Assembly: GCA_025059995.1 (NCBI GenBank)
Contig: JANXCF010000004.1
Span: forward strand, 62,001 to 126,000
Source: Leptospiraceae bacterium
GTDB lineage: Bacteria > Spirochaetota > Leptospiria > Leptospirales > Leptonemataceae
Direction: 5' to 3'
DNA: 64,000 nucleotides
A model generated the notes under the pieces. The model ran no database searches. It was not told the origin of the DNA and saw nothing but the letters and a program-made list of their open reading frames with translations. The translations under genes and the position numbers were made by a program. Shown in pieces: positions 59,232-60,935 of the stretch. The first letter of the stretch is position 1; every line of letters starts with the position of its first letter.

Positions 59232-60866
59232 TCAATACATCTCTACTTTTGAGTAAAATAATTGTAGTTCTATTCTTTTTAGGAGTTGTTCTAATCCAAT
59301 CTTTTTCAAAGCACTGATTGGAACTATATTTTTGGAATTTTGTAGTTCATTTTGTTCAGCAGGAGATAACAAATCAATCTTATTCATTACAAGAATTTGT
59401 GGAATTCTCATAAGACCTAAGTTTTCTAAAATTGTATTTACATCCCGAATCTTTTGTTCTCTCAAAGGATCGCTTGCATCAACACAATGAATCAACAAAT
59501 CCGAAAACTGTAATTCTTCTAAGGTTGCTTCAAAGGCTCTCTGCAACTCTGGTGGTAAATCGTAAATAAATCCTACCGTATCGGCAATAATGATTTCCCT
59601 TTCCTCAGGAAAGCGAATTCGTCTCGTCGTAGGATCTAAAGTAGCAAAAAGTAAATTTTCGGCAAAAACCTGAGAATTCGTCAAAGAATTGAGTAAGGTA
59701 GATTTTCCTGAGTTTGTATAACCCACAATTGAAACTAAAGGAATCCCAACTTCTTTTCTTACTTTTCGGTTGACTTCTCTTCTTTGTTTGATACGTTTTA
59801 GTTCTTGTTCTAAGCGATGGATTCGTTCTTCTACTCTACGTCTTCCGATTTCTAGTTTTGTCTCACCTGGTCCTCGTCCCCCAATGCCACCCGTCAATCG
59901 AGACATGTTATCATCTTTTTCACTGAGTCTTCCCTTTAGATAACGAAGTTGAGCTAATTCCACTTGAAGTTTACCATCCCTACTTTTTGCATGCTTTGCA
60001 AAGATGTCTAGAATCAATTGGGTTCGGTCGATGATTTTTAAACCAGTTTCCCTTGAAATTTTGATGGCTTGAGCCGGGGTAAGTTCTTTATCAAAAATTA
60101 ACATTTCGGCATTCCGCTGAACGGCTAAAAAAGTGATTTCTTTTAGTTTTCCACTTCCTATAACCGTGCTACTTTCGATTTTATCACGATTTTGGATCAC
60201 AACTTCCACCGGCATAACTCCCGCTGTTCTACACAATTCTTTTAGTTCTGCCATGGAATGATCTGGACTTCTCTTTTTTCGATTTTCTAATGTGTAAACT
60301 CCCACTAATATTGCTCGGGGGATGTTGCCTGCCTCTTTGGTTTTTTGTAAATTTCGATTGAATTCAGCATCAATTAACTCAACAAGTTCTTTGAATTTGT
60401 ATTTTTGTTGCCCAGGTTTTTCGGTTTCTAAGATTTCGTAATATCTTTCTGACTCAGGAGCTAACCTAGCAGAATAAAACTTATCAGGAAGTCCCAGTCG
60501 GTCTATCGTGATGGCGGTTATGGTATCAAACCTCAGTAAGGTCAAATCGTATAAGTCTTCTTCCGTGAGTGGTTCTTTTTTTAGATGGGTGTGAATCAGT
60601 CGTAGTTCCCTCAATCTTGCTGAGCGCTCTCTTTCCAATTCAGGTATTACAATTCGTTTGTCATCTCCAACGATAACGTGATGAATCTTTCCTTTCCGAT
60701 CAACTAATATCCCTATTTGTCGGAAGAGCTGTTGAGACAATATTGTGAGTTCTTTTGCGATGTCGTTTGATACAATTACGTCTTCATCAATCTTTTTTCG
60801 TGTGAGTCTTCTAAGTTGACTGAGTTCTTTGTGACTCAGCCCTTCTAAATTACCCGTAAGTTGGAT
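59232..60866 (-). CDS. hflX: GTPase HflX, with probable ATC start
   Basis: The protein has 544 aa from the ATC at 60864-60866. It is a ribosome-associated GTPase with the HflX linker GGIGGRGPGETKLE, Walker A GYTNSGKST, DTVGFIYDLPPELQ and NKIDLL. The N-terminus (GNLEGLSHKELSQLRRL) matches long HflX proteins but lies upstream of the first standard start, a TTG at 60738-60740. The only ribosome-binding site is a perfect AGGAGG (60873-60878), six bases before ATC. An in-frame TGA at 60897-60899 excludes any ATG. A TTG start would lose 42 conserved residues. Confidence 0.85.
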   Translation of the reverse strand: MQLTGNLEGLSHKELSQLRRLTRKKIDEDVIVSNDIAKELTILSQQLFRQIGILVDRKGKIHHVIVGDDKRIVIPELERERSARLRELRLIHTHLKKEPLTEEDLYDLTLLRFDTITAITIDRLGLPDKFYSARLAPESERYYEILETEKPGQQKYKFKELVELIDAEFNRNLQKTKEAGNIPRAILVGVYTLENRKKRSPDHSMAELKELCRTAGVMPVEVVIQNRDKIESSTVIGSGKLKEITFLAVQRNAEMLIFDKELTPAQAIKISRETGLKIIDRTQLILDIFAKHAKSRDGKLQVELAQLRYLKGRLSEKDDNMSRLTGGIGGRGPGETKLEIGRRRVEERIHRLEQELKRIKQRREVNRKVRKEVGIPLVSIVGYTNSGKSTLLNSLTNSQVFAENLLFATLDPTTRRIRFPEEREIIIADTVGFIYDLPPELQRAFEATLEELQFSDLLIHCVDASDPLREQKIRDVNTILENLGLMRIPQILVMNKIDLLSPAEQNELQNSKNIVPISALKKIGLEQLLKRIELQLFYSKVEMY

Positions 60867-60935
60867 ACGTTTCCTCCTGATGGTTTGATTTTGATTTCAT
60901 ATTATTCTTAATTTTATGAAAGTCAATTCGGTTTT

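Follow-up and report, generated by a model that had tools for sequence, protein, structure and literature searches.

Conserved AUH start codons (AUA, AUC or AUU) are already known as a kind from infC, pcnB, ccpN and cvfC1, and one has been inferred for lepA. The infC gene starts with AUU in Escherichia coli (PMC1780047, PMC13009471) and with AUA in Staphylococcus aureus (PMC13009471), in association with autocontrol. IF3 discriminates against AUH codons, and E. coli infC exploits this for its autocontrol (cited in PMC13009471 and PMC1780047). Starts of ccpN (AUA; S. aureus and Bacillus subtilis), a metabolic repressor, and of cvfC1 (AUU; staphylococci), a small protein of unknown function, were shown by ribosome profiling and reporters (PMC13009471). 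In Staphylococcus, AUH starts are paired with strong Shine-Dalgarno (SD) sequences; S. aureus AUU and AUA starts with strong SDs gave about 10-30% of AUG expression (PMC13009471). The inferred AUU start of lepA, encoding a ribosome GTPase, is confined to isolated cases, one of them in a spirochaete. HflX, likewise a ribosome GTPase, splits 70S ribosomes, and its E. coli transcript is elevated in heat shock; IF3 blocks subunit reassociation (PMC9067457). In Bacillales, a link between hflX expression and the state of the ribosome was proposed through uORFC-6-1, a leader peptide with RNA structure (PMC8632094).

Here we analyse hflX of a member of Leptospirales, for which an AUC start is proposed. 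Similarly to infC, this is a ribosome-related gene with an AUH start and an SD at usable spacing. Unlike in infC, the product is not IF3 but a splitting GTPase, so that control would act in trans; moreover, infC of the genomes studied starts with ATG or TTG, unlike that of E. coli and S. aureus. Conserved AUH codon and strong SD are shared with ccpN and cvfC1, the hflX start being supported here by sequence comparison rather than from ribosome profiling and reporters. In contrast to hflX, lepA has canonical starts in these genomes. Instead of the leader peptide and RNA structure of Bacillales, hflX of Leptospirales would combine a short leader with an AUH start codon. In the literature covered, which was partial and comprised titles and abstracts for Leptospira, no AUH start is described for hflX.

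The hflX locus

The gene lies on the reverse strand of the window, i.e. the whole stretch of 64,000 nucleotides analysed. Its product is assigned to HflX GTPases by curated model TIGR03156 (GTP_HflX; 441.4 bits, cut-off 216.75) and is homologous along its entire length to those of 25 genes of Leptospirales. The reading frame is open between an in-frame TGA (60897-60899) and the stop codon (59232-59234). Its first canonical start codon is TTG at 60738-60740, and the 52 codons between TGA and TTG contain no ATG, GTG or TTG. The proposed start codon, ATC at 60864-60866, occupies the first conserved position of the family and is preceded by an AGGAGG SD (60873-60878) with a 6-nt spacer. The coding sequence from ATC (59232-60866) comprises 544 codons and the stop; initiation at TTG would cost the ATC and 41 further codons (60741-60863).

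All these positions, as well as those of a 16-codon frame discussed below, had been given correctly in an initial sequence-only reading, as confirmed by direct reading. That the codons upstream of TTG encode the HflX N-terminus, as also claimed there, agrees with conservation of the 42 codons from ATC to TTG among relatives. The 52-codon open stretch is by itself unremarkable; it is its conservation across relatives that appears remarkable. Among window ORFs of at least 120 codons whose best SD-scored candidate start is AUH, the set covered by this comparison, hflX alone has its first canonical codon beyond codon 11.

Start codons of hflX across Leptospirales

The alignment comprised 26 long hflX genes whose 5' ends are complete, from 16 genera and both families of the order. 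Codons were placed on the HflX protein alignment and columns were counted relative to glycine of the conserved GN motif. Conservation sets in with the column five codons before this glycine, which contains ATC in eight genes, ATA in six, ATT in four and ATG in five. In the remaining three of the 26, the start-like codon is shifted downstream by one codon, being ATC in the window, ATT in L009 and TTG in L008. Conservation of amino acids is absent upstream of the start column and present downstream of it. The start column is also the only Ile-rich column that mixes Ile and Met without Val; others contain Ile alone or additionally Leu, Val or other residues. Ile and Met codons mixed in this way are what a start codon would be expected to produce.

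By column assignment, 20 of the 26 genes, in both families, have an AUH start. In 14 of these, from 10 genera and including that of the window, no ATG, GTG or TTG occurs between the upstream in-frame stop and GN (L005, L010, L011, L013, L014, L018, L020, L021, L023, L025, L026, L027, L029 and L030). Alternatives are almost nil in L020, where two codons separate stop from ATC (TAA-AAG-ACT-ATC), and in L023 and L025, where three do (TGA-GGA-GTT-ACT-ATC); three codons lie between stop and ATC in L026 as well. The other six AUH genes (L009, L017, L019, L022, L024, L028) are ambiguous, having a usable canonical codon upstream or at -4. Comparison of start regions in related genomes, suggested as a check by the sequence-only reading, thus finds AUC, AUA or AUU in most sampled members of the order. 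The same reading had presented the ATC start as very rare; the start itself stands, its isolation does not, AUH being an order-wide pattern.

Within the genus of the window, the start codon is unstable (ATG, ATG, TTG, ATC), L006 and L007 having their ATG at the codon that precedes the position of ATC in the window. Canonical codons at or beside this position in the same genus might suggest that, in the window alone, ATG was turned into ATC by a base-calling or assembly error. Against this, 13 other genes from nine other genera have AUH without canonical alternative. Because independent genomes show AUA, AUC and AUU at one column, sequencing error is untenable as a general explanation, and for the window alone we regard it as improbable.

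Shine-Dalgarno sequences

Pairing of the window SD with the anti-SD gives a best duplex of -10.3 kcal/mol, and none of the 50 internal Ile codons of hflX has an equally strong one. The median SD score of the 20 AUH genes is -5.9, while four of the five AUG genes are almost devoid of SD; SDs are stronger at AUH than at AUG starts (Mann-Whitney p=0.005, uncorrected for relatedness). AUH relatives mostly have their SD at start-compatible spacing, and L017 has none at its ATA. A base error in the window is further opposed by its strong SD at standard spacing, shared with other AUH genes but not with the ATG-bearing L006 and L007.

In L006 and L007, a strong AGGAGG is located about 20 nt upstream of ATG, beyond standard spacing. 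It is perhaps a remnant of an earlier start arrangement.

Conservation and modelled structure of the N-terminus

Across the first 40 codons, dN is well below dS in pairs where both could be estimated, including the window paired with L006 of the same genus. In an AlphaFold2 model of the window protein, built with a 26-sequence alignment, block pLDDT is 86-94 for residues 1-70. The modelled N-terminal domain has a strand (residues 2-5) directly after AUC and helices at 12-23 and 34-47. In its core, the model matches structures of HflX in complex with ribosomal large subunits, and the best PDB folds are those of HflX.

These data bear on the possibility that translation starts from TTG at 60738 and that what lies upstream is a remnant no longer translated. 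TTG is indeed a standard start codon. Nevertheless, its SD score is only -0.2, the N-terminus preceding it is under purifying selection, and in relatives the N-terminal position is occupied by ATG, TTG or AUH. TTG is residue 43 and falls inside helix 34-47 of a confidently modelled domain; initiation there would therefore remove the first strand and the first helix, together with part of the next helix. We consider this alternative very improbable and reject TTG as the main start on account of SD score, selection and position within the helix.

The start at ATC behind AGGAGG, as proposed in the sequence-only reading, is supported by the 25 related genes, SD placement, N-terminal selection and the structure model. 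It is thus highly probable that translation of hflX in the window starts at AUC 60864-60866.

Leader and the 16-codon frame

A consensus scan detected a promoter-like sequence TTGACT-16-TAATAT (60899-60926, reverse strand; 9/12 matches). It predicts an mRNA start near 60892 and a leader of about 26 nt, being a consensus match only and not functional evidence. No Rfam elements were found near hflX. TTGAC-type promoter-like sequences were also noticed by eye near the hflX start in L020, L021 and L029, which suggests that hflX mRNAs may have short leaders in several relatives.

The start of hflX is overlapped by a 16-codon frame on the same strand (60850-60900; ATG at 60898-60900, TAA at 60850-60852), probably not functional. 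Its ATG and the -10 element of the promoter-like site overlap, and the transcript with its predicted start near 60892 would begin downstream of this ATG. The element ATGAAATCAAAA is kept only in L007 of the same genus, in the same frame relation and without a nearby stop; it was not seen in other genera. We wondered if the ATG of this frame could be the true start, followed by +1 frameshift (e.g. at GGG-TAA-T) into hflX. Such a shift would preserve the G of GN, and the frame relation in L007 fits it. It is, however, extremely improbable and was rejected: the frame is not common to other relatives, its counterpart in L007 lacks the nearby stop, AGGAGG is far from the shift site and the likely mRNA start lies past the ATG. 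Reinitiation after the 16-codon frame, suspected in the sequence-only reading, is a weak idea and was likewise dismissed, since the frame is not general among relatives and the best promoter-like site starts mRNA beyond its ATG. A role of this frame in either process is hence unlikely.

Distribution outside Leptospirales

Searched with an N-domain profile, 393 spirochaete genomes contain the long HflX form only in the window's order. A contig scan for relatives retrieved only Leptospiraceae/Leptospirales and unplaced MAGs labelled as spirochaete or "bacterium"; it is from the named ones that the order is taken to be Leptospirales. The same profile found no match among viral contigs and, among plasmids, matched only Fusobacterium, whose hflX has an annotated ATG start.

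Further, we examined 60 additional start regions. Of these, 59 belong to spirochaetes outside the order, and the last belongs to a short hflX within it (L203). A canonical codon is present in nearly all, the exceptions being G059 (L197) and G062 (L221); in G329 (L219), the sole canonical codon is GTG within the conserved part. Short hflX genes of these genomes from other spirochaete lineages (L197 and L149 of G059, L221, L219) thus seem to be without a properly placed canonical start and have ATC, ATA or ATT preceded by an SD, and AUH starts of hflX may also arise sporadically elsewhere. Two hflX genes each were observed in G026, G027 and G031, one long and one short in the former two.

Evolution and gene specificity

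On a maximum-likelihood tree, parsimony requires three switches between AUH and canonical starts, and ATA, ATC and ATT were exchanged for one another at least eight times. Since AUH starts are present in both families and most genera, the distribution is most simply explained if the AUH start of hflX is old in the order. Third-base changes to G account for about two of some ten, which is not clearly fewer than chance, so these numbers give no sign of active AUG avoidance. It is nonetheless notable that AUG, normally favoured as start codon (PMC5622118), has not taken over in hflX.

In these genomes, the three control genes infC, frr (leaving out L264 on a truncated contig) and lepA have canonical starts, which makes AUH specific to hflX among the genes tested. 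Starts of infC in the order are ATG and several TTG (e.g. L053, L056, L063, L065).

In other spirochaete classes, infC often has SD-preceded ATA or ATT (L104, L105, L106, L107, L109, L110, L112, L115). In the window's class it has ATG, and in its order ATG or TTG. The AUH start of infC seems to be lost where hflX has one.

Proposed role of the AUC start

We propose that full-length long-form hflX would be initiated at AUC, positioned by the strong SD and read by fMet-tRNA. The AUC of the window would continue an old AUH start, for which AUG or UUG was substituted on few occasions. Since AUH codons are rejected by IF3, basal translation of hflX would be low. It would rise, possibly also upon stress, when there is little IF3 for the 30S subunits present or initiation fidelity is down. 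In this way, the start codon of hflX would link a factor that splits ribosomes to the condition of the initiation machinery.

By analogy with infC, we give IF3-responsive regulation of hflX through the AUC start somewhat less than an even chance. The main alternative, a serious possibility although also short of even, is that the AUH start is real but serves as a fixed low-expression device, IF3 level not being a physiological regulator. AUH starts were weak in every reporter context tested (PMC13009471) and some lineages use AUG or UUG instead, both in line with a fixed device. On the other hand, few changes to canonical codons over deep divergence and SD compensation suggest that the codon is maintained, and E. 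coli HflX belongs to the stress factors (PMC9067457). Regulation through IF3 could go further: we tentatively suggest that Leptospirales place an IF3-sensing start on hflX while infC is canonical, so that the splitting stress factor, and not IF3, reads IF3 availability.

Gene finders restricted to ATG, GTG and TTG would truncate or misplace HflX in many Leptospirales genomes. Very few bacterial genes are known to have conserved AUH starts, and hflX would add an order-wide case. If true, start-codon control of the IF3 type would extend past infC to a ribosome-splitting factor, and the order-wide AUH start of hflX suggests that initiation fidelity and ribosome rescue are directly linked.
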